Shown in pieces: positions 13,436 to 64,000 of a DNA stretch of 64,000 nucleotides. The DNA is from Flavobacterium limicola (GTDB lineage: Bacteria > Bacteroidota > Bacteroidia > Flavobacteriales > Flavobacteriaceae): assembly GCF_003634755.1 (NCBI RefSeq), contig NZ_RBXA01000004.1, forward strand, positions 1 through 64,000. Direction: 5' to 3'. Under the pieces are notes generated by a model that worked only from the letters and a program-made list of their open reading frames with translations, had not been told where the DNA came from and ran no database searches. Numbering within the stretch: the stretch's first letter is position 1; every line of letters begins with the position of its first letter. The translations under genes were made by a program, and so were the position numbers.

Positions 13436-13516
13436 TCAGGAGCTTATCCTGCTGTCCGTTATATCTTTCTTTGCCTAAAGAAGGCAAAGAAAGGATGCCA
13501 CTACCATCAGGGCTAA
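13436..13516. repeat. Dispersed palindromic repeat, copy B (inverted)
   Basis: The flanks read, on the plus strand, aggagcttatcctgctgtcc and ggatgccactaccatcaggg. They surround a hairpin, CTTTCTTTGCC and GGCAAAGAAAG around TAAAGAA. On the minus strand this matches the layout of copies near 1-73 and 40006-40072. It directly follows the cphA stop codon and precedes a terminator. Confidence 0.6.
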
Positions 13517-13521
13517 AAAAC

Positions 13522-39883: not shown

Positions 39884-40005
39884 TTTATTTATTTTCAAAT
39901 ATATTAAAATTTTCTTACAAATCATTAAAAGGACTTTTTATTAGCTAGATGTTTGTTTGAATAGTAATGGGAAGATTTTAGTTGTTATTACGACTTTTTA
40001 TGCGT

Positions 40006-40072
40006 GAGGGATAAAAGTGGAAATCCTTTTATAAAGCGCAGCGAAATAAAAGATTATAACGAATAGCCCGAC
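40006..40072. repeat. Dispersed palindromic repeat, copy C
   Basis: The flanks gagggataaaagtggaaatcc and aagattataacgaatagcccgac surround a short variable stem. They match copy A at 1-73 in the same orientation and copy B at 13436-13516 inverted. It lies in the 530-nt gap between the cassette-like genes and tgt. Confidence 0.6.
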
Positions 40073-40290
40073 CTTTTTAGGGCACGCCCAAAACCATTTA
40101 CTAAACGATACGTATATTTTTGAATGCTATAATTGTCTCATTTTTCTCTTAAAAAGCAGGTATATTTTAGTTGTTATCCTGATAGCTTTCGGGACACTTT
40201 TATACTTTAGAAAGTGAAAAACATTTTTTTGATGTAGATTTCAAATTAACCTATCTTTGCCAGCCGAACAATCGGGTGAAATACGTTACT
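40073..40290. promoter_or_regulatory. tgt upstream region with promoter
   Basis: TTG at 40229-40231 and TATCTTTG at 40252-40259, 20 nt apart, match the Bacteroidota promoter. The -7 box ends 31 nt before the ATG at 40291. The rest of the gap from 39884 carries repeat C and no gene. Confidence 0.7.
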
Positions 40291-49202: not shown

Positions 49203-49275
49203 GACTCGATAGCTCAGTTGGTAGAGCACATCACTTTTAATGATGGGGTCCTGGGTTCGAGCCCCAGTCGGGTCA
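49203..49275 (+). tRNA. tRNA-Lys (TTT), first copy
   Basis: A 73-nt cloverleaf: acceptor GACTCGA pairs with TCGGGTC, the anticodon loop CTTTTAA holds anticodon TTT, the T arm is CTGGGTTCGAGCCCCAG, and the discriminator is A. CCA is not encoded. Followed 39 nt later by an identical second copy. Confidence 0.97.
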
Positions 49276-49314
49276 CAATTTTAGTGATCAACACATAATT
49301 TTCTTGAAAGCATT

Positions 49315-49387
49315 GACTCGATAGCTCAGTTGGTAGAGCACATCACTTTTAATGATGGGGTCCTGGGTTCGAGCCCCAGTCGGGTCA
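49315..49387 (+). tRNA. tRNA-Lys (TTT), second copy
   Basis: Identical in all 73 positions to the copy at 49203-49275, with the same anticodon TTT and discriminator A. The copies are separated by a 39-nt spacer, consistent with a recent tandem duplication or gene conversion. Confidence 0.97.
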
Positions 49388-49388
49388 C

Positions 49389-49428
49389 AAAAGGTCGAGT
49401 AATTTATTACTTGACCTTTTCTTTTTTA
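49389..49428 (+). terminator. Hairpin between tRNA-Lys and tRNA-Leu
   Basis: AAAAGGTC and GACCTTTT pair, with AGTAA/TTACT inner pairing, followed by a T-rich run. It may end the tRNA-Lys transcript or serve as a processing hairpin before tRNA-Leu. Confidence 0.65.
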
Positions 49429-49429
49429 A

Positions 49430-49512
49430 GGCCACGTGGAGAAACGGTAGACTTGCCAGCTTGAGGGGCTGGTGCTCGCAAGGGCGTGTGGGTTCAAATC
49501 CCACCGTGGTCA
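49430..49512 (+). tRNA. tRNA-Leu (GAG)
   Basis: An 83-nt tRNA with a class II long variable arm (GTGCTCGCAAGGGCGT region). Acceptor GGCCACG pairs with CGTGGTC, the anticodon loop TTGAGGG holds GAG, and the T arm is GTGGGTTCAAATCCCAC. Discriminator A; CCA not encoded. Confidence 0.95.
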
Positions 49513-53901: not shown

Positions 53902-54960
53902 TTAATTATTGAAATAAAAGCCATTAGGAGTTACACCAACAGTGCTATTGTTTTTCAAAACTCCGTTTGTGTCATAAATAGCAACTTTACCATTCGAACT
54001 ATAATCCGCTGCATCAGCCAAGTAAACTATATTATTGTTTACAGCAAAACCATAGACACTAAAACTAGTCGTAAAAAGAGCTTTTGAAGGCAAAACAGTA
54101 TCCGATGTATTCATCACAAATACATTTTTAGCTTGTGTGAAATACAATTTATTATTTTCTATATCCATTTGACCAGGATGAGAAGTCAAGGCGAAATCTA
54201 AAGTTGTACTAACCATATTTGTAGTAGGATTGATTTTTTGCAACTTCCCAGCAGTTTCATCACCAGTCCAAGAAGCTTTACCACTACTTAGAACATAGAT
54301 AACACCTTGATTTTCTTCAATACTTGCCGGCTTATCTCCTACTGAAATAGTAGCTGTCACTTTAGAAGTCAAAACATCAACCACTGAAACCGTATTTCCT
54401 GAACCATATCCGCCTAAATGTGCTACATATAATTTATTATTATAAACGATCAGCTTTTCTGGACCTTCAGCTACTGGAATTTTGCTTTCTATTACATTTG
54501 AAGTCAAATTCACAACAGCAATATAATCGTCCGTTGCATCACTTCCATCTCCCCAGTTTGTAACATATCCTTTTCCATTTGCAAAAACAATATATCTTGG
54601 ATTTTTCAAATCTTTATCAATAGTCGCAATACTTTTGAAAGAATATCTGTTTACAATTTGAATTGTATTAGAACCATTCATTACTATATAACCAAACTCT
54701 CCATTAGCATTAAAATCCTGTGCCGTATCACCTAATAATTTCCCTTGATTAATCGTGGAATAAAGCGAGTTTTGTTGCGTCACAAAATCATTGGTGATAA
54801 AAGAAATTTCAGCATTGGCTTTCCCAAAACCTCCTTCATTGATTATAAAAAAGCCATTGTCGTAAGCTCCTAATGATTTTTCCTCATTTGTATCATTCGT
54901 ACAAGATCCTAAAAACAAAGTGGAAACCAAGACTGCGATTGTAAAAATTTTAAATTTCAT
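53902..54960 (-). CDS. BtuG-like surface cobalamin-binding lipoprotein (DUF5074/YncE propeller)
   Basis: 352 aa. The signal ends VSTLFLGSC, giving a lipid-anchored Cys. The rest is repeated beta-propeller blades: FFIINEGGFGKANAEISFI, IVMNGSNTIQIVNRYSFKSIATI, PRYIVFANGKGYVTNWG and similar units. It lies 3 nt after btuB, as BtuG does in Bacteroides, where this protein caps BtuB at the cell surface and captures B12 with very high affinity. The same role is inferred from position and propeller architecture. Under the same riboswitch as btuB. Confidence 0.85.
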   Translation of the reverse strand: MKFKIFTIAVLVSTLFLGSCTNDTNEEKSLGAYDNGFFIINEGGFGKANAEISFITNDFVTQQNSLYSTINQGKLLGDTAQDFNANGEFGYIVMNGSNTIQIVNRYSFKSIATIDKDLKNPRYIVFANGKGYVTNWGDGSDATDDYIAVVNLTSNVIESKIPVAEGPEKLIVYNNKLYVAHLGGYGSGNTVSVVDVLTSKVTATISVGDKPASIEENQGVIYVLSSGKASWTGDETAGKLQKINPTTNMVSTTLDFALTSHPGQMDIENNKLYFTQAKNVFVMNTSDTVLPSKALFTTSFSVYGFAVNNNIVYLADAADYSSNGKVAIYDTNGVLKNNSTVGVTPNGFYFNN

Positions 54961-54963
54961 GTG

Positions 54964-56793
54964 TTAATATTTAATTGTTAGAGTTAAATTATAGTTGCTA
55001 CCAGGCATTGGTCTTACCTCAACGGTTTGGTAGTTTTCATTAAATAAATTCAGTGCTTGAATTCCTATTTTATAATGGTCCAATTCCCCTATTTTGTAAT
55101 AGACACTAAGATTTGAAACCTGATATTCTTTCAATCTGTAATAATTATCCGCAGAGGTAAAAACTGCACCATTGAATAAATATTGATAATTTAAGGACCA
55201 ATTTTTATAGGAGTAATCTGCATTCACGGTCATTTTATGATACGGAACATAAATCAGTTGTTTCTGATTACTTTGATCCACAGACGAAGTATAGCCGTAT
55301 GCCAAACTGATATTAAAATTATGTCCCTTGAAATTTTTAAAATAACTTCCTGTTACCTCTACCCCTTTATTTACAACACTTGCTGTGTTAATAGGCATCC
55401 ATTGTCCTGTCTCATTAGGAATCCAACGAATCATTCCTTTGGTTTGAATATAAAAACCTGTCAATGAAAATTTCAAAGCATTGATTTTTAATTCCTGACC
55501 CAATTCCATTTGATTGGAAAGTTCCGGAATGAGTTCATGGTTACCGCTTCCTTCCCAGTATAAATCATTGAAAGAAGGCAGTCTGAAATTTTTAGATGTG
55601 TTCAATTTGATGCTGTACATTTCAAATGGCTGGTAAACTAACCCAAAAGAATATAAAAAGGGATTTCTATAATTTGTGGCAACTTCCTGTCTTACGCTTG
55701 CTTCATATTGCATAGCGGGACTTAATGTATGTTTAACTAACAGGCTTGCAGCGCCTATACTTCTTTTGGCATTATTAATTGAGGTCCCAAAACCATTAAT
55801 TTGCGTGAAATCAACAACTGAATTGACGGTGAAGTTTTTAGTTGGAGAATAATCTAAATCATATTTTATTATTTTAGTTTTGGCGCCACCTTCACTAAAA
55901 ATATCTTTATCCTTATTCTCATAATACTTATAATTTTCAGTTACATACGCTAATTTCAACTTAGAAGTGAAATCTTTATGTAATCCAACCCACTCCAGCA
56001 AATTTCTTGTGTTCAAATCATAATATTTACTCACAGAAATGGAAGCTAAAGTTCCGGAAAAATGCCGTAAACCGTCATATACCTGACTATAAAAATTAAT
56101 TTTATGATTCAAATTGATTTTATAACCAAAACTTCCATTTAAACTGGTATTGTAATAATCTCCATTTTGATTTTTTTGATTTGAATTGGGATAACCATAA
56201 TCGTTATCCGAGCTATTTCTGGAGATACTAAACTGAGAAGCAACTTTCTCATCAGAGGCAATAAGCTGATAATAATACCCTTGCGTATTAAAACTTCCAA
56301 AATTCATTCGTAAAAGATTCTGAAATTGTTTTTTAAAATGTAGCTCATTGTTCAAATGAATGCTCCCACCTATAGCTGAACTACCATAAATTCCGCTACC
56401 ACCACCAGTTCTTACAGAAACATTAGTATAACCCAAAGGGGTTATGGTATTAAAATCCGTTTGTCCCAGAAGCTGTGAATTTATGTTAATCCCATTCCAA
56501 ATCACTGCTGTTTGTGCTGCAGTTGTACCTCTGAAGGAAACAGAAGAAGTCATTCCGTTTCCATATTCTTTCAGATAGAGCAAGCTATTGTATCGCAATA
56601 AATTGGTCAATGAACTGTAATTCCTCTGAATCACAGAATCATTTAATACCTGAACCTGTAGTGTTTTTGAATATTTTTTTAAAGCGCCGTCAGTTACAAT
56701 TACTTCGTTTAAAGAAATTGCAGGTTTATTTTGAGCCAAAACACATTGGCACACACTTAAAAAACAAAATAAAAGTATTTTTTTTGTAGTCAT
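54964..56793 (-). CDS. btuB: TonB-dependent outer-membrane vitamin B12 receptor
   Basis: 609 aa from the ATG that opens MTTKKILLFCFL. A longer frame from 56889 would start inside the riboswitch and is rejected. Signal peptide to about residue 22; the plug domain (NEVIVTDGALKKYSKTLQ, YGNGMTSSVSFRGTTAAQTAVIWNGI, GSGIYGSSAIGGSIHLNN) fits BtuB, and the barrel ends in a typical C-terminal NLTLTIKY. It takes up cobalamin across the outer membrane using TonB energy. Expression is controlled by the cobalamin riboswitch just upstream. Confidence 0.95.
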   Translation of the reverse strand: MTTKKILLFCFLSVCQCVLAQNKPAISLNEVIVTDGALKKYSKTLQVQVLNDSVIQRNYSSLTNLLRYNSLLYLKEYGNGMTSSVSFRGTTAAQTAVIWNGININSQLLGQTDFNTITPLGYTNVSVRTGGGSGIYGSSAIGGSIHLNNELHFKKQFQNLLRMNFGSFNTQGYYYQLIASDEKVASQFSISRNSSDNDYGYPNSNQKNQNGDYYNTSLNGSFGYKINLNHKINFYSQVYDGLRHFSGTLASISVSKYYDLNTRNLLEWVGLHKDFTSKLKLAYVTENYKYYENKDKDIFSEGGAKTKIIKYDLDYSPTKNFTVNSVVDFTQINGFGTSINNAKRSIGAASLLVKHTLSPAMQYEASVRQEVATNYRNPFLYSFGLVYQPFEMYSIKLNTSKNFRLPSFNDLYWEGSGNHELIPELSNQMELGQELKINALKFSLTGFYIQTKGMIRWIPNETGQWMPINTASVVNKGVEVTGSYFKNFKGHNFNISLAYGYTSSVDQSNQKQLIYVPYHKMTVNADYSYKNWSLNYQYLFNGAVFTSADNYYRLKEYQVSNLSVYYKIGELDHYKIGIQALNLFNENYQTVEVRPMPGSNYNLTLTIKY

Positions 56794-56837
56794 AATTTCT
56801 GAACTCTTTTTCCCGAGAGTTCGATATTTGTTACGTA

Positions 56838-57095
56838 AAAAGGCAGGTCTCCTGGCTTGCGTCTTGTTGTTAACCTTCCCATCCAACAAGCGGACAGTGG
56901 TTTTGTAGATAACAACAAGCTTATTAGCTTACAGTTGCGGGTACAGCCCAGGATTTTGATTTAGAAATTAGAAATTTTGACTTAAGATTTATTTAAAAAC
57001 CTGTAATCTATAATCTAATATCTACAATCAGTCACCTGATTCCCTTTTAATGCTGAATTGAAAAACAAAAACAGCAACCTCAATACGGTGGCAAA
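56838..57095 (-). promoter_or_regulatory. Cobalamin (B12) riboswitch with a large insertion
   Basis: Read on the minus strand the leader contains GCCACCGT, GAGGTTG, TTAAAAGGGAATCAGGTG, CCTGGGCTGTACCCGCAACTGTAAGC, CCACTGTCCGCTTG and the B12 box CAAGCCAGGAGACCTGCC at 56839-56856. These are the conserved elements of the class. Between CAGGTG (57033-57038) and CCTGGGCTG (56943-56951), where the loop is normally a few nucleotides, about 78 nt of AT-rich palindromic sequence (56955-57032) is inserted. It would turn off btuB-btuG when cobalamin is abundant. Confidence 0.95.
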
Positions 57096-57123
57096 GATAG
57101 CGCTTTAATCAACTAAAAATCAA
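57092..57123 (-). promoter_or_regulatory. Promoter of the btuB riboswitch transcript
   Basis: On the minus strand, TTG at 57123-57121 and TATCTTTG at 57099-57092 are 21 nt apart, the Bacteroidota spacing. The box lies directly before the riboswitch, so btuB-btuG can be transcribed apart from the cob genes. Confidence 0.7.
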
Positions 57124-57195
57124 TTTTTAATTTCAATTAAAATAAATTTGAAAACAAAATACATTGAATCAACAACTTACGTTAAAATAAAAAAC

Positions 57196-57720
57196 TTACC
57201 ATTCTATTTTCAGTACTGAGCCATAATCGACTTTATTTTGAAAAGCATCTTTTAACGGTAAGCTTGCTATTTTGCATAAGACACTTCGAATTACTCCTGC
57301 ATGGGCAACAATAACAACTGGTTTTAAAGTATCTTTTTGAAATTCGTTCGTCATAAAGTCAACAACTCGATTGTATAAATCAACAAATGACTCACCGTTA
57401 GGAACCCGAACGTTTACAAAATCATTCATCCAAGGTGTAAAATCATTCACAGGAATGTCATCCCAATTTTTCAATTCCCAATTCCCAAAATTCATCTCCA
57501 TCAAGCGATGATCTGTAATTACAGGCGTTGTTGCTATATAATTAGCTAATTGTGTACAACGAATCAATGGACTAGAGAACACCTTTGCCTGGTCAGGAAT
57601 TTGCGCTTTTATAGTTTCAAAATGTTGCAGATAAGGTTCCAAAATCCCCACATCTGATTGTCCATAACAAATGCCTTTTTCACAAACCGTTTCGGTATGA
57701 CGCACTAAATAAATTTCCAT
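57196..57720 (-). CDS. cobC: Alpha-ribazole phosphatase (CobC-type histidine phosphatase)
   Basis: Dephosphorylates alpha-ribazole-phosphate, or the 5'-phosphate of cobalamin, late in the lower-ligand pathway. 174 aa from the ATG opening MEIYLVRHTE; an ATG at 57780 adds 20 residues and overlaps cobS further. The phosphoglycerate mutase-like signature is LVRHTETVCEKGICYGQSDV, with SSPLIRCTQLA and a later VIVAHAGVIR holding the second catalytic His. It overlaps cobS by 16 nt, so it is in the cob operon. Confidence 0.9.
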   Translation of the reverse strand: MEIYLVRHTETVCEKGICYGQSDVGILEPYLQHFETIKAQIPDQAKVFSSPLIRCTQLANYIATTPVITDHRLMEMNFGNWELKNWDDIPVNDFTPWMNDFVNVRVPNGESFVDLYNRVVDFMTNEFQKDTLKPVVIVAHAGVIRSVLCKIASLPLKDAFQNKVDYGSVLKIEW

Positions 57721-58502
57721 AAAGCTAGTATTGATATATAAAATACGACTTCGCAAACCTGTTGTGCAGCTCCCAGACAATCTCCGGTATACCCATCAAT
57801 CCATTTATAAAAATAACGAGCCAGAAAAAATCGAGTTAAAAAAACGGGTATTAAAACCAATACTATTTGCCATTGAAAAAAAGACAATATAACGAGTGGC
57901 AATAACCCAAAAGATAAGGAACCGACTACTTCTTGCCAAGCATACGTTTTTGCGATAGGTTTACTTTTGCTTGTTTCATCATCTCTGGAATAGGAATAAG
58001 TGAATATAATGGTGATTGCCACAAAACGACTTACTGATTGTGCCGCAACAAATAAAAGAAAAATCGTCAATGTAGCATTAGGAGTCAGCATCGAGGATTC
58101 AGTAATCATCTCGCTTATTACTTTAAACTTAAGTACTAAAAGCAGTAAAATACCAATTGCTCCATACGCTCCAATAGCGCTGTCTTTCATTATCAAAAGA
58201 ATTCTTTCTTTGGTCCAACCTCCACCAAAACCATCACAAACATCAGCAAATCCATCTTCATGAAAGGCACCAGTAGTTAGAATTCCAGCAATAATTCCCA
58301 AAATAACGGCTGTTTCAGTTTCTAAAAATAACGAAGCCAGATAGTAGGCTACAAATGAAATAGTACCAACTATCCAACCAATCAGCGGAAAGTAACGCGT
58401 TGCTTTGTTTAAATAATCAGGATTGTGGTCTATGTTTTTAGGACACGGAATTCGGGTGTAAAACATCAAGGCTGTAAAAAACAGGTGTATTTCTCTTTTC
58501 AT
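57705..58502 (-). CDS. cobS: Adenosylcobinamide-GDP ribazoletransferase (cobalamin synthase)
   Basis: Joins adenosylcobinamide-GDP to alpha-ribazole (phosphate), completing the nucleotide loop at the membrane. 265 aa with several membrane helices. The catalytic Asp-rich motif is HEDGFADVCDGFGGGWTKER, followed by GAYGAIGILLLLVLKF, characteristic of CobS. It has the next gene overlapping by 16 nt and the bluB-cobT fusion 57 nt upstream. Confidence 0.95.
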   Translation of the reverse strand: MKREIHLFFTALMFYTRIPCPKNIDHNPDYLNKATRYFPLIGWIVGTISFVAYYLASLFLETETAVILGIIAGILTTGAFHEDGFADVCDGFGGGWTKERILLIMKDSAIGAYGAIGILLLLVLKFKVISEMITESSMLTPNATLTIFLLFVAAQSVSRFVAITIIFTYSYSRDDETSKSKPIAKTYAWQEVVGSLSFGLLPLVILSFFQWQIVLVLIPVFLTRFFLARYFYKWIDGYTGDCLGAAQQVCEVVFYISILALWKFI

Positions 58503-58559
58503 ATTTTGTTGAACGCAGATAAACTTATCGTCGTTTTTATTTTAAATTTATATTTAAGA

Positions 58560-60236
58560 TTACTCTTGATCGACACCGGCACTTTCGAAACTTGCCATTT
58601 TATTCAAAAAAACAACCGCTGATTGAATTATAGGAAAGGCGACAGCACAACCAGTTCCTTCGCCTAAACGCAAATCTAATTGTAAAATAGGTTGTACTCC
58701 CAGATAATCCAACAATTTTCGGTGTGCTTGCTCTGCAGAACAATGACAAAAAATTGCATTTTTTTTGACTCCAGGATTTATTTTAAAGGCTATCAAATAC
58801 GCTACACTACAAATGAAACCATCAACCAGAATAAGCATATTGCTTTGATAGGCAGATAACATTCCAGCTGCCATCTGCAGAATTTCAAACCCTCCAAAAT
58901 GAGCCAGTTTTGAATTTAAATCGGGCTCTCCTGAATAATTTTCAATTGCTTTTTTTAGAATTTCATTTTTTTTAATTAATTTTTTATCGCCAACTCCTGT
59001 TCCCCTACCCACACAATCCGCAATAGATAATCCAGTGATTACGCTCATTAAAACAGAGGCTGTAGCAGTATTTCCTATACCCATTTCTCCAAAACCTATG
59101 CAATTGCTACCTTTTTTTGCAAGCACAGCAACGATTTCTTTTCCTTTACTAAAACACAATTGCAATTCCGTTTGGCTCATTGCCGGACCATGCAAGAACG
59201 ATTGTGTTCCTTTTCCAATTTTTGCAGAAATCAGATTAGCATTTGTTGGAAAATCATAATTAACACCCGCATCAACAATAGATAACGCAATACCATGCTG
59301 TTTACAGAACACATTTATAGCTGCTCCACCTTCCAGAAAATTTAGCACCATTTGTCGCGTTACGTCTTGCGGATAAGCGCTTACACCATGATTTGCAATT
59401 CCGTGATCAGCGGCAAAGGTCACTATGTTTGGGTTTATTATTTGGGGTTCTAAACTTTGAAAAACTTCCCCAATTTGTTTGGCTATAGATTCTAGTACTC
59501 CCAAAGAGCCTTTTGGTTTTGACTTATGATCAATTTTATATTGTAATGCATTTGAAAAATCAGTGGAAACGATTTGATCATTAAAATTCGGAATTTCCAT
59601 TTTATAATGGGATAAATTAGTGATTTCTGTCACCGAAGGCACCTCCGATTTTTGCTTCCAATTTAATTGTTGCAACATGGGCTGGTTTTCATAATTTGTA
59701 GCGGGTTTGCCCACACAGAAATATCCCAAAGGCTCCATGTAATCCGGAAACCCTAATAAATGCTTGAACTTATAATAGTTCAAAATAGAAACCCAACCCA
59801 TCGAATATCCTTGTTCAGTAAGCGACAGCCAAATATTTTGCGCCGCACAAACCGAACTAAACTTCACGGCTTCATTGCTTCCTACGGTTCCAATTGTGAA
59901 ATTATTGAGTACCGAACGATCGTAACAAATCACTAATCCAAGTGGCGCTTCCTCAATAGCTTCTAATTTCAAGGATTTGTAACTTGCTTTTTGATCTTCA
60001 TTATCGGTCAGGTTTACGGCTTTTTTATCATATTCCAAAAATAATTCTTTGACCGCTGACTTAATTTCAGCTGACTTAATGGTATAAAATCTTGTCGCAT
60101 CCGTTAATCCTACTGAGGGAGCCCAATGTCCGGCTTGAAGTGCTTTTTTAATGACAGCATCTGGGACTTCATCATTTGTAAAATGACGGGTATCACGACG
60201 GGATTTTATAATTTCATCTAAATAAGTCATTTGCAA
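58560..60236 (-). CDS. Fusion of BluB (dimethylbenzimidazole synthase) and CobT
   Basis: 558 aa in one unbroken frame. Residues 1 to about 215 are a BluB-type flavin-dependent nitroreductase-fold enzyme that makes 5,6-dimethylbenzimidazole: KSRRDTRHFTNDEVPD, HWAPSVGLTDATRF, and NYENQPMLQQLNW at the end. Residues about 220-558 are nicotinate-nucleotide-dimethylbenzimidazole phosphoribosyltransferase: GEMGIGNTATASVL and LRLGEGTGCAVAFPI with the catalytic Glu. The fusion would channel DMB into alpha-ribazole phosphate. It is joined to cobU with no gap. Confidence 0.93.
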   Translation of the reverse strand: MQMTYLDEIIKSRRDTRHFTNDEVPDAVIKKALQAGHWAPSVGLTDATRFYTIKSAEIKSAVKELFLEYDKKAVNLTDNEDQKASYKSLKLEAIEEAPLGLVICYDRSVLNNFTIGTVGSNEAVKFSSVCAAQNIWLSLTEQGYSMGWVSILNYYKFKHLLGFPDYMEPLGYFCVGKPATNYENQPMLQQLNWKQKSEVPSVTEITNLSHYKMEIPNFNDQIVSTDFSNALQYKIDHKSKPKGSLGVLESIAKQIGEVFQSLEPQIINPNIVTFAADHGIANHGVSAYPQDVTRQMVLNFLEGGAAINVFCKQHGIALSIVDAGVNYDFPTNANLISAKIGKGTQSFLHGPAMSQTELQLCFSKGKEIVAVLAKKGSNCIGFGEMGIGNTATASVLMSVITGLSIADCVGRGTGVGDKKLIKKNEILKKAIENYSGEPDLNSKLAHFGGFEILQMAAGMLSAYQSNMLILVDGFICSVAYLIAFKINPGVKKNAIFCHCSAEQAHRKLLDYLGVQPILQLDLRLGEGTGCAVAFPIIQSAVVFLNKMASFESAGVDQE

Positions 60237-60743
60237 TTATTTGATTTTAACTGGAATTCCGGAGACCATCAACACAACATTATCGGCAGTTGCAGCTAAA
60301 TATTGGTTCATCCAACCTTGTAATTCGGTAAATTTCCTACCAATGTGAGTATCCGCATGAACGCCCATCCCTATTTCATTGGTTACAATAATTATTGTCG
60401 CATTTTCATGATTGACTATCGCATCAAATTCAGCTTTAGCTTGTTCTAAGCACAAGCGAACATCATTTTTAGTATCTACAAAAAAGTTCGTTAACCAAAG
60501 CGTAACGCAATCGATAATGGCTACTTCCCCCGAAAAATTAATTTCACTCAAGTGTTTTTCTTTTTCGATATTAATCCATCGTTCGTCACGGTCTTTTTGA
60601 TGGCGATCGATTCTCTTTTGGAAATCATCATCCCATTTTCGGGCTGTAGCCACATACATTGGTTTATCCGACAATCCTTTTGCTAAATTTTCGGCATAGC
60701 TACTCTTACCGGAGCGTTCCCCGCCAGTTATTAAATATATCAT
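60237..60743 (-). CDS. cobU: Adenosylcobinamide kinase / adenosylcobinamide-phosphate guanylyltransferase
   Basis: 168 aa bifunctional enzyme that phosphorylates cobinamide and transfers GMP. The P-loop is TGGERSGKSSYAENL, with YVATARKWDDDFQKRIDRHQ containing the guanylylated His region, RWINIEKEKHL and VTNEIGMGVHADTHIGRKF. The length is typical. It directly precedes the bluB-cobT fusion (stop and start adjacent) and follows a cysteine-rich gene by 2 nt. Confidence 0.96.
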   Translation of the reverse strand: MIYLITGGERSGKSSYAENLAKGLSDKPMYVATARKWDDDFQKRIDRHQKDRDERWINIEKEKHLSEINFSGEVAIIDCVTLWLTNFFVDTKNDVRLCLEQAKAEFDAIVNHENATIIIVTNEIGMGVHADTHIGRKFTELQGWMNQYLAATADNVVLMVSGIPVKIK

Positions 60744-60745
60744 TT

Positions 60746-61123
60746 TTATATTTTTTTAAATCCATACGGACAATGTCGACATCCATTGTTACAACAATGT
60801 CCTCTTTTAAGATGAAACCAAGCCTTGAAAACATAATTCCCATTTTCTAAATAATAGTCTATTCCTTCTATGAGATTCGTAGCTTTGAGTAAATCTTTGG
60901 CTTTGTTATCCGTTGCAGTTTCAGGAGACAGAGTTGCAACATATTCGTCAATTTTAGTGGAGCAAGCAATTGTAAAACAATTGGAACAGAGACAATCCAA
61001 CACTTCTGACGGAGAAAAAATGGACGGAAAATTGTTGCACCAGCATTTACTTCCTTCAGGGGTGTCCCCGCAATTAAAAGGAGTTCCGCAAGTAGAACAG
61101 TTTTTTACTTTAATGCTATTCAT
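60746..61123 (-). CDS. Cysteine-rich CWC/DUF5522-type protein at the head of the cob operon
   Basis: 125 aa from the ATG that opens MNSIKVKNCSTCGTP; an ATG at 61171 would add 16 residues. Thirteen cysteines are present. An N-terminal cysteine-rich segment (CSTCGTPFNCGD, CWCNNF, CLCSNCFTIAC) is followed by a C-terminal HLKRGHCCNNGCRHCPYGFKK. The spacing suggests two metal or Fe-S sites. Its link to cobalamin salvage is its place: 2 nt before cobU. Function unknown. Confidence 0.7.
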   Translation of the reverse strand: MNSIKVKNCSTCGTPFNCGDTPEGSKCWCNNFPSIFSPSEVLDCLCSNCFTIACSTKIDEYVATLSPETATDNKAKDLLKATNLIEGIDYYLENGNYVFKAWFHLKRGHCCNNGCRHCPYGFKKI

Positions 61124-61191
61124 TTTGTAAAGATAGTATTTGTTCAATTTTTTACTACTAAAAATAAACAAGAAATTTTATAAATTTGGTA

Positions 61192-61199
61192 TACCTTTG
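61192..61199 (+). promoter_or_regulatory. Probable -7 box of the btuFCD operon
   Basis: TACCTTTG matches the TAnnTTTG consensus and ends 21 nt before the btuF ATG at 61221. No clear TTG at the expected distance. No B12 riboswitch is seen here, unlike upstream of btuB. Confidence 0.5.
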
Positions 61200-61220
61200 T
61201 TGCTATCGAAAAATTAAACC

Positions 61221-62363
61221 ATGAAGTTCTCCATTAGATTAATCCTTTTTATTTTGTCTTTTTCAACTTTCGTTGGATGTAAAAAAAGCGAAACCTTAAA
61301 GGTAAAAGAACCCAAAAATTCAAAAAATGCAATCGAATATGCCTCGGGCTTTTCTATAAATAAATATGAAGGATATTCAATAGTGACGGTTTCAAATCCT
61401 TGGCCCGAAGCCAATAAAAACTTCACGTATATACTAAAAGAAAAAAACGGCAGCATTCCTGACAGCCTAAAAAAATATACTACAATTCCAGTTCCTTTAC
61501 AATCGATTGTGGTTACCTCAACAACTATAATCCCTTTTTTGGAAATGCTGGGAGTTGAAAAATCACTGGTGGGTTTTCCTCATACCGATTATGTTTCTTC
61601 TGAAAAAACCAGGAAACTAATTGATGCCGGCACTGTTAAAAACATAGGGCAAAACGAAAAATTAAATATGGAGCAGCTCATTGAATTGGAGCCTAACTTA
61701 ATCGTAACCTTTGGCATTGACAACAACAATCCAATGCTTGATAATTTACAAAAAAGTGGTCTTAAAGTACTCATTCAAGCGGATTGGATGGAACAAACTC
61801 CACTTGGCAAAGCAGAATGGATTAAGCTTTACGGCGCTTTATTTGGAAAAGAAAAAGAGGCAAAAACACTTTTTGACGGAATTGTTAAAAATTATAATGA
61901 CGCGATACAATTGGTTGCAACCAAAAAACCTACAGCTACAGTTTTATACGGATCAATGTATCAAGATCAATGGTATGTAGCAAAAGGAAATAGCTGGGTA
62001 GCGCAATTTATGAAGGACGCCAAAGCAAATTATTTGTGGGCAAATGTTGCAGGAACAGGAAGTCTTAGTTTGCCTTTTGAAAAAATATTAGAGAAAGCAA
62101 AAACGGCAAAATATTGGATTGCAACAGGTTCTTTCAAAAGTATTGCTGAATTTAAAAATAGCAATACGCATTACAGTCAATTTGATGCTGCAAAATCTAA
62201 AAATGTGTATACTTTTGAAAGTAAATTAGGCGCAACGGGAGGAACCATTTACTATGAATTGGCAGCAAGCAGACCAGATTTAGTATTGAAAGATTACATT
62301 AAAATCTTCCATCCGGAACTGCTTCCAAATTATACTTTTACTTTTGCACAAAAACTAAACTAA
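61221..62363 (+). CDS. btuF: Cobalamin ABC transporter substrate-binding lipoprotein
   Basis: 380 aa. The signal ends FSTFVGC, so it is lipid-anchored in the periplasm. The ligand-binding fold has two lobes (about 85-200 and 230-370) with the helical backbone of BtuF/FhuD-type proteins: VVTSTTIIPFLEMLGVEKSLVGF, EQLIELEPNLIVTF and GSLSLPFEKILEKAKTAKYW. It is followed 1 nt later by btuC. Binding of vitamin B12 is inferred from the locus; iron-siderophore binding is the alternative for this fold. Confidence 0.85.
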   Translation: MKFSIRLILFILSFSTFVGCKKSETLKVKEPKNSKNAIEYASGFSINKYEGYSIVTVSNPWPEANKNFTYILKEKNGSIPDSLKKYTTIPVPLQSIVVTSTTIIPFLEMLGVEKSLVGFPHTDYVSSEKTRKLIDAGTVKNIGQNEKLNMEQLIELEPNLIVTFGIDNNNPMLDNLQKSGLKVLIQADWMEQTPLGKAEWIKLYGALFGKEKEAKTLFDGIVKNYNDAIQLVATKKPTATVLYGSMYQDQWYVAKGNSWVAQFMKDAKANYLWANVAGTGSLSLPFEKILEKAKTAKYWIATGSFKSIAEFKNSNTHYSQFDAAKSKNVYTFESKLGATGGTIYYELAASRPDLVLKDYIKIFHPELLPNYTFTFAQKLN

Positions 62364-62364
62364 A

Positions 62365-63396
62365 TTGGCGAATCAAAAACGAAATACTTTTCTATTTTTC
62401 TTATTTACTTTTGGGCTTGTTCTTTTGTTTTTTGTAAACATTAGTTTTGGTTCCATAACGATACCTTTTAAAGAAATTTATACTAGTTTAACTGGTGGTC
62501 AAGCGAGTAAATCCACCTGGGAATATATCATCATCAATTATCGTTTACCCAAGGCCATTACAGCAATTCTTGTTGGAATGGGATTATCCATAAGTGGTTT
62601 GTTGATGCAAACTTTGTTTCGGAATCCATTGGCAGGACCTTATGTTTTAGGACTGAGTTCCGGAGCCAGTTTAGGTGTCGCTTTTGTAATATTAGGAGCG
62701 AGCTTACTTCCTCCTTTTTTAAGTACAATTTTACTATCCTCTTATGGAGTGGTTTTAGCCTCAACTATGGGAAGTTCTGTTGTATTACTTGCCGTTTTGA
62801 TGGTTTCCCAAAAGCTTCGCGATACCATGGCCATCTTAATTGTGGGGCTAATGTTTGGTAGTTTTACCAGTGCAATAGTAGGCGTTCTTGCGTACTTTAG
62901 CTCGGCTGAACAATTACAGAAATTTACGTTTTGGTCCATGGGAAATTTAGGAAATTTGTCTTGGTCTTCTGTGTTAATTCTAACCGTTTGTGTGGGGATT
63001 GGTTTGTTATTAAGTCTATTTAGCATCAAGCCGCTTAATGCGTTGCTGCTTGGTGAAAATTACGCTCGCAGTTTAGGTTTGAATTTCAAAAAAACACGAT
63101 TGATTATTATTTTTGCAACGAGTATTTTAGCAGGAAGCATCACGGCGTATGCAGGTCCGATTGCTTTTATAGGACTGGCAGTTCCACATATAGCAAAATT
63201 AGTATTTCAAACCAGTAATCATTCTGTTTTGTATTGGAGTACGTTACTTTTAGGAGCTTCGATTATGCTTATTTGTGATGTACTTTCAGAATTGCCCGGA
63301 TTGGAAATCACTTTGCCAATCAATGCTGTTACTTCAATTATTGGTGCTCCGGTCGTAATTTGGTTATTGGTTAGAAAACGAAAAATGATTGCCTAA
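62365..63396 (+). CDS. btuC: Cobalamin ABC transporter permease, FecCD family
   Basis: 343 aa with about ten membrane helices, typical of the BtuC/FecCD family. Hallmarks: RLPKAITAILVGMGLSISGLLMQTLFRNPLAGPYVLG, then GAISIPFALLGL-type conserved AGPIAFIGLAVPHIAKLVF and the C-terminal LPGLEITLPINAVTSIIGAPVVIWLL. The start codon is TTG at 62365 in the frame shown as valid by the family alignment (ANQKRNTFLFFLFTF). It overlaps btuD by 1 nt. Confidence 0.93.
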   Translation: MANQKRNTFLFFLFTFGLVLLFFVNISFGSITIPFKEIYTSLTGGQASKSTWEYIIINYRLPKAITAILVGMGLSISGLLMQTLFRNPLAGPYVLGLSSGASLGVAFVILGASLLPPFLSTILLSSYGVVLASTMGSSVVLLAVLMVSQKLRDTMAILIVGLMFGSFTSAIVGVLAYFSSAEQLQKFTFWSMGNLGNLSWSSVLILTVCVGIGLLLSLFSIKPLNALLLGENYARSLGLNFKKTRLIIIFATSILAGSITAYAGPIAFIGLAVPHIAKLVFQTSNHSVLYWSTLLLGASIMLICDVLSELPGLEITLPINAVTSIIGAPVVIWLLVRKRKMIA

Positions 63397-64000
63397 TGGA
63401 AAACAAAATTATCTTACAAGCGTCTCAAATCAGCATCGGTTATTCTCATAAAAAAGAAGAAATCGTAGTGGCTTCGGATATTTCTATTTCTTTAAAAAAA
63501 GGAAAACTGATTGCTTTAATTGGTGCGAATGGTATTGGAAAATCCACGCTTTTAAAAACGATAACTGGAATCCAAAAACCGCTTTTAGGTACCGTTTTCT
63601 TGAATGAAAAGAAAATTACTGATTATGAACCTTTGGACTTGGCACAAAACCTAAGTATCGTTTTAACCGAAAAATTACCACCTAGTAATTTAACCGTTTT
63701 TGAACTCATTGCTTTAGGAAGACAACCGTACACCAATTGGATCGGAACTTTATCTGATATTGATATTGTTAAAGTGAATGAAGCGATGGTGTTGACACAA
63801 ATCAGTCATTTAGCCACAAAAAAACATTATGAGATTAGTGACGGGCAATTACAGAAAGTATTGATTGCGCGAGCTTTGGCACAGGATACTCCATTAATAA
63901 TTTTGGACGAACCTACTACCCATTTGGATTTATTGCACAAAGTAGCCTTATTCAAACTTTTGAAAAAGCTTACTCATGAAACCGGAAAATGCATTTTATT
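63396..64000 (+). CDS. btuD: Cobalamin ABC transporter ATPase, cut by window end
   Basis: The ATG at 63396 overlaps the btuC stop (TAATG). The 201 codons visible contain Walker A GANGIGKSTLLK, a FELIALGRQPYTNW Q-region, a signature read as ISDGQLQK (instead of LSGGQ), Walker B PLIILDEPTTHLD and no stop. The 3' end is outside. The signature variant with SDG is seen in FecE/BtuD-like proteins of Bacteroidota as I recall. It energises the btuC permease. Confidence 0.92.
   Translation, partial: MENKIILQASQISIGYSHKKEEIVVASDISISLKKGKLIALIGANGIGKSTLLKTITGIQKPLLGTVFLNEKKITDYEPLDLAQNLSIVLTEKLPPSNLTVFELIALGRQPYTNWIGTLSDIDIVKVNEAMVLTQISHLATKKHYEISDGQLQKVLIARALAQDTPLIILDEPTTHLDLLHKVALFKLLKKLTHETGKCIL

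Follow-up and report, generated by a model that had tools for sequence, protein, structure and literature searches.

A BluB–CobT fusion protein with a diverged BluB half in the cobinamide-salvage operon of Flavobacterium

The characterised precedent for a protein joining BluB to CobT is BluB/CobT2 of P. freudenreichii (Deptula 2015, PMC4657239), which makes 5,6-dimethylbenzimidazole (DMB) and alpha-ribazole phosphate, with free DMB left over in traces only. Isolated Flavobacteria records of the fusion are already mentioned there, and a 2023 paper (PMC10038948) searched for B12 producers by means of such fusions. A literature search for a Flavobacterium bluB/cobT gene returned nothing beyond one sentence in PMC4657239, and the papers searched contained no report on the activity of any Bacteroidota fusion. 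Stand-alone counterparts are known for both halves: S. meliloti BluB (2isj) is the closest solved structure to the first half described here, and Thermus thermophilus CobT (1j33) and Salmonella enterica CobT share the fold of the second. CbiY of Bacillus megaterium is likewise a BluB-like flavoprotein of a cobalamin operon, although it is not a DMB synthase (PMC3573010) and is only 18-20% identical to BluBs.

We analysed a window of 64,000 nucleotides from Flavobacterium limicola (contig NZ_RBXA01000004.1, positions 1 to 64,000). A first-pass annotation of this DNA had placed BluB and CobT in one polypeptide of 558 residues at 58560-60236. Both domains are indeed encoded by a single open frame, which lies on the minus strand (60230→58560) and comprises a BluB domain, a linker of about 28 residues and a CobT domain. 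The coordinates of that annotation were right, but its length counts from a TTG at 60236, directly after the cobU stop; translation likely begins at the ATG at 60230, six bases past that TTG, which gives 556 residues and matches the genus-wide alignment. The features of the locus are as follows.

53902..54960, minus strand: DUF5074 lipoprotein (Pfam, conserved locus, structure similarity)
54964..56889, minus strand: btuB-like TonB-dependent receptor, start probably downstream of the riboswitch (Pfam; TIGR01779 119 bits, below cut-off; conserved locus)
56825..57097, minus strand: cobalamin riboswitch before btuB (96.8 bits)
57196..57780, minus strand: cobC, alpha-ribazole phosphatase (Pfam, NCBIfam, conserved locus)
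57705..58502, minus strand: cobS, cobalamin-phosphate synthase (Pfam, NCBIfam, CobS survey, conserved locus)
58560..60230, minus strand: bluB-cobT fusion gene, 556 aa from ATG, 558 from TTG 60236 (Pfam, NCBIfam, relatives' loci)
58563..59555, minus strand: CobT domain, residues 226-556; E382/E524 correspond to Salmonella E174/E317 (NCBIfam, alignment, fold match)
59556..59639, minus strand: interdomain linker, about 28 residues, nearly unconstrained (pN/pS)
59640..60230, minus strand: BluB domain, residues 1-197 in ATG numbering; D13/S148 correspond to S. meliloti BluB D32/S167 (NCBIfam, alignment, fold match)
60093..60122, minus strand: altered FMN-pocket segment APSVGLTDAT, canonical APSVGxxQPW (alignments)
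60237..60743, minus strand: cobU, cobinamide kinase/guanylyltransferase (Pfam, NCBIfam, conserved locus)
60746..61171, minus strand: DUF5522 cysteine-rich protein, first operon gene (Pfam, conserved locus)
61221..62363, plus strand: btuF-like periplasmic binding protein (Pfam, conserved locus)
62365..63396, plus strand: btuC-like permease (Pfam, NCBIfam, conserved locus)
63396..64000, plus strand: btuD-like ABC ATPase, continuing beyond the window end (read from the sequence, L042 397-1179)

The same join is present in every relative that was fetched. Among the loci fetched for the 80 best of 183 relatives in the GTDB genome collection, both domains occupied one open frame in 80/80, and their titles read Flavobacterium, Flavobacteria or Flavobacteriaceae with the sole exception of '[Flexibacter] sp.'; the remaining 103 relatives may include outliers from other genera. 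An assembly artefact that had joined two adjoining genes is therefore refuted, since the identical join recurs in all 80 loci and in 29/29 same-genus matches. A survey of domain architectures across Bacteroidota, which the first-pass annotation had proposed, found the fusion in Flavobacterium only, among the matches listed. Within an order sample of 395 genomes, a match spanning both domains occurred in 29/37 Flavobacterium genomes and, among the matches listed, in 0/358 genomes of other genera. The corresponding counts from a phylum sample of 395 Bacteroidota genomes, which overlaps the order sample, were 19/23 and, again among the matches listed, 0/372, with CobT and BluB matched separately in the other genera. 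Restriction of the fusion to Flavobacterium among these sampled Bacteroidota is new here, and shows the 'isolated entries' to be part of a genus-wide trait of cobinamide salvagers, embedded in an operon. In Sphingomonas, BluB and CobT are encoded by nearby yet separate genes. A 627-aa CobT frame from Nonomuraea was rejected as a fusion, its N-terminal part having no family match, and a search of viral contigs for a BluB of the fused clade found none.

The surroundings of the fused gene are equally stable. The order cobU–bluB/cobT–cobS–cobC is conserved across the fetched loci, and the complete arrangement (btuC, btuF / DUF5522, cobU, bluB-cobT, cobS, cobC, btuB, DUF5074) is found in 57/80 of them (best 80 of 183). 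Of the 74 loci that exceed 12 kb, all carry cobU, cobS, cobC, btuF and btuC (74/74 each), 71 carry DUF5522, 66 btuB and 58 DUF5074. The cobalamin riboswitch precedes btuB only, and no Rfam match at E<=1 was obtained over the cob operon (57000-64000). The DUF5522 gene lies upstream of cobU in 74/80 loci; a literature search by this name found no paper. The DUF5074 lipoprotein after btuB resembles solved 'surface layer'/YncE-family proteins and is presumably BtuG-like.

Both halves were recognised by family profiles. Pfam places Nitroreductase at residues 10-177 and DBI_PRT (CobT) at residues 224-555, and both NCBIfam models exceed their cut-offs, CobT (TIGR03160) with 413.5 bits against 319.3 and BluB (TIGR02476) with 156.5 bits against 150. 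An AlphaFold model of the fusion (mean pLDDT 74.8, pTM 0.66, 32-sequence alignment) has a CobT part that matches CobT structures with a Z of 38.6 and a first part whose best match is BluB 2isj (Z 18.6, rmsd 1.9, 162 residues, 32% identity), followed by FbiB (Z 17.4, rmsd 3.2); as a single chain built from a shallow alignment, it is not reliable on the relative placement of the two active sites.

Domain order is that of P. freudenreichii BluB/CobT2, with BluB N-terminal and CobT C-terminal in one chain, and the Flavobacterium protein is similarly predicted to make and activate DMB and to need oxygen for it. The two differ in build: the P. freudenreichii protein has 626 aa with a spacer of about 34 aa containing 23% proline, whereas the Flavobacterium protein has 556 aa and a linker of about 28 aa with two prolines. 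Against S. meliloti BluB, the BluB part of the former shows 40% identity and that of the latter 33% (62 of 187 aligned positions); the latter also lacks Gln-Pro-Trp (QPW). The hosts differ too, P. freudenreichii being a de novo producer and the Flavobacterium carrier a cobinamide salvager.

Divergence of the BluB half is seen throughout the genus. Its TIGR02476 score is 152.7-168.7 bits across 29/29 carriers (cut-off 150), compared with 235-269 bits for five canonical Bacteroidota BluBs, and the fused copy is the sole BluB over the cut-off in 29/29 carriers. We aligned 109 fused rows (80 + 29; 104 distinct rows, with some genomes probably shared by the two sets). The Asp and Ser at the positions of D32 and S167 in S. 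meliloti BluB, which we take to be its catalytic residues, are kept in 109/109 rows, as are the motifs RRD, GW[VI]SI, GEMG and LGEG. The QPW that follows APSVGxx in 13/13 canonical BluBs (Proteobacteria, Thermus, Nocardia, an archaeon and Bacteroidota genomes), and that the stand-alone S. meliloti enzyme has, is found in 0/109 fused rows, all of which read APSVGL[TA][DEN]AT at this segment. SRRDTRHF and LRLGEGTG are both there, as the first-pass annotation said, but its description of the active-site motifs as intact was too strong for BluB, where Asp-Ala-Thr replaces Gln-Pro-Trp in F. limicola.

In a BluB tree, which carries a long-branch warning, the fused BluBs form one clade (98/96) on a long stem (1.92); 14 canonical BluBs stand next to them (70/82), and six nitroreductases branch separately (100/99). 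The possibility that the half is a nitroreductase with no relation to BluB was rejected on the BluB score, the fold ranking and, subject to that long-branch warning, this separation. Selection was estimated from 91 pairs of 14 fused sequences, hand-picked from 81: pN/pS was 0.20 for BluB, 0.28 for CobT and 0.91 for the linker, ratios that are rough because synonymous sites are near saturation, and amino-acid identity over the same pairs was 0.776, 0.706 and 0.193, respectively. The BluB half is hence under strong constraint, more so than CobT, and is not decaying. A BluB half that is deeply diverged and barely over the family cut-off, with Asp-Ala-Thr for Gln-Pro-Trp, yet constrained, is a new observation.

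The low score, the loss of QPW in every row and the long stem could also mean that the BluB half no longer makes DMB and serves as a CbiY-like or regulatory FMN-binding domain, leaving CobT to use DMB or other bases from outside. CbiY offers a precedent (PMC3573010), although the Flavobacterium half, at 33% identity to S. meliloti BluB, stands closer to BluB than CbiY does. Another genus (f5/g34) includes 18 genomes with stand-alone CobT but, among the matches listed, none to BluB; these may depend on outside lower ligands. We consider loss of DMB synthesis distinctly unlikely: the presumed catalytic Asp and Ser are invariant, the constraint on BluB exceeds that on CobT, and none of the 29 carriers has a BluB candidate besides the fused copy, while a Flavobacterium releases DMB in an oxygen-dependent manner. 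This last point comes from a 2025 paper (PMC12747077), in which the exometabolome of Flavobacterium sp. 98 contains DMB in air, with none detected at 100 ppm O2; the text examined names no DMB gene for the strain.

The CobT half is a clear member of its family. Glutamates at the positions of Salmonella CobT E174 and E317 are present in 109/109 fused rows, as they are in the stand-alone Thermus and Salmonella enzymes. Its base pocket has Tyr/Met/Met where Salmonella has S80/Q88/L175, the combination also found in ArsA and, judging from structure titles and sequence, in the Salmonella S80Y/Q88M/L175M variant crystallised with p-cresol. Tyr/Met/Met also occurs in most stand-alone CobT relatives and in Thermus, and is therefore no sign of phenol use. 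No ArsAB-type tandem of cobT paralogues was found; the genome has one CobT match, and none adjoins it among the named operon genes. With a pocket like that of the p-cresol variant, a preference for DMB over other lower ligands, as proposed in the first-pass annotation, cannot be read from the sequence. It can be concluded, though, that DMB alone among lower ligands was found to be within the biosynthetic capacity of this genome.

In a CobT tree, built without L049 and the truncated L146 and without any actinobacterial fusion sequence, the fused CobTs group as a single clade (100/98) that branches from within the stand-alone CobTs of Bacteroidota, and the Nonomuraea CobT falls outside. This nesting points to a fusion made inside Bacteroidota and, indirectly, makes it likely that the actinobacterial fusion had a separate origin. 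Descent by gene transfer from an actinobacterial BluB/CobT2 would account for the identical domain order and for the distribution in a 2015 BLAST survey (PMC4657239), where the fusion was widespread in Actinobacteria and isolated elsewhere, including Flavobacteria. Given where the fused clade falls, albeit in a tree drawn without actinobacterial fusions, we regard such a transfer as very improbable.

The carriers are nearly all cobinamide salvagers, which is new here. The F. limicola genome has cobU, cobT, cobS and cobC and lacks the de novo markers sought: CbiB was not found, and the best CbiL match reached only 54.2 bits (cut-off 163). CbiB is present in 1/37 Flavobacterium genomes and CbiZ in 0/29 carriers. 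Cobinamide salvagers are described as common among Bacteroidetes (PMC6461909), in keeping with this setting. CobS occurs in 29/29 fusion carriers versus 0/8 non-carriers among the 37 Flavobacterium genomes, which means that the pathway is retained or lost as a whole. A PF01923 adenosyltransferase and three B12-binding domains, in frames of 713, 892 and 1160 aa, show that the cell has uses for the cofactor. An anaerobic benzimidazole route was sought in the genome and not found, the single ThiC-family gene being a true ThiC (1087 bits) and not BzaB (409.7 against a cut-off of 700); the earlier view that only aerobic synthesis of the lower ligand is encoded at this locus thus extends genome-wide. 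One Flavobacterium genome (G119, L156 12810-19592) carries cobyric acid synthase, cobD-like, cbiB and cbiL genes and is likely to make B12 de novo, as few members of this phylum do. A genome from another genus of the same family (G072) has a stand-alone canonical BluB (L044 2402-3073, 235 bits) and a separate CobT.

Taken with the characterised precedent, a bifunctional enzyme appears to be the best reading. We put at roughly 0.85 the probability that the gene encodes a nucleotide-loop enzyme combining DMB synthase and DMB phosphoribosyltransferase in a cobinamide-salvaging Flavobacterium, fused once in the genus. The N-terminal BluB domain would use FMNH2 and O2 to break the flavin down to DMB, and the C-terminal CobT domain, held on a flexible linker, would convert DMB and nicotinate mononucleotide to alpha-ribazole phosphate. 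With flux presumably in this direction, CobU, CobS and CobC of the operon would then attach the alpha-ribazole phosphate product to imported cobinamide, corrinoids probably entering via the neighbouring Btu-type transport genes. The fusion would have arisen in a single event in Flavobacterium, with a divergent BluB joined to a CobT native to Bacteroidota. Salvagers equipped in this way would bring their own lower ligand, turning scavenged corrinoid into cobalamin.

The direct handover of DMB assumed in the first-pass annotation does not find support here. The linker is almost unconstrained and free DMB is extracellular in strain 98 (PMC12747077), which together suggest a simple tether and argue against a sealed channel. 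That a Flavobacterium releases free DMB in an oxygen-dependent way supports activity of the enzyme, and the likely benefit of the fusion would be co-production and tethering, not a sealed tunnel. If the genome of strain 98 resembles those of the 29 carriers, the fused enzyme would be its DMB source. The fusion is also a candidate for the gene behind the antifungal DMB reported from a plant-associated Flavobacterium. A bolder proposal, which we think unlikely, is that Flavobacterium has a separate BluB lineage, known only as a CobT fusion, in which Asp-Ala-Thr for Gln-Pro-Trp alters how the product is held or released, so that DMB is overproduced, spilled and also secreted as an antifungal, or alters the product itself. 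Should the bifunctional enzyme be active, the QPW segment would be dispensable for flavin destruction, and the protein would directly test what defines a BluB. The F. limicola gene is thus a real, intact fusion of an already known architecture, and the Flavobacterium form is a distinct variant in its diverged BluB, its genus-wide presence and, probably, its separate origin.

Elsewhere in the window, two Flavo-1 RNAs were detected, at 13441-13518 on the minus strand (78.7 bits) and 39996-40077 on the plus strand (53.7 bits), and three consecutive tRNA genes lie at 49203-49512 on the plus strand.
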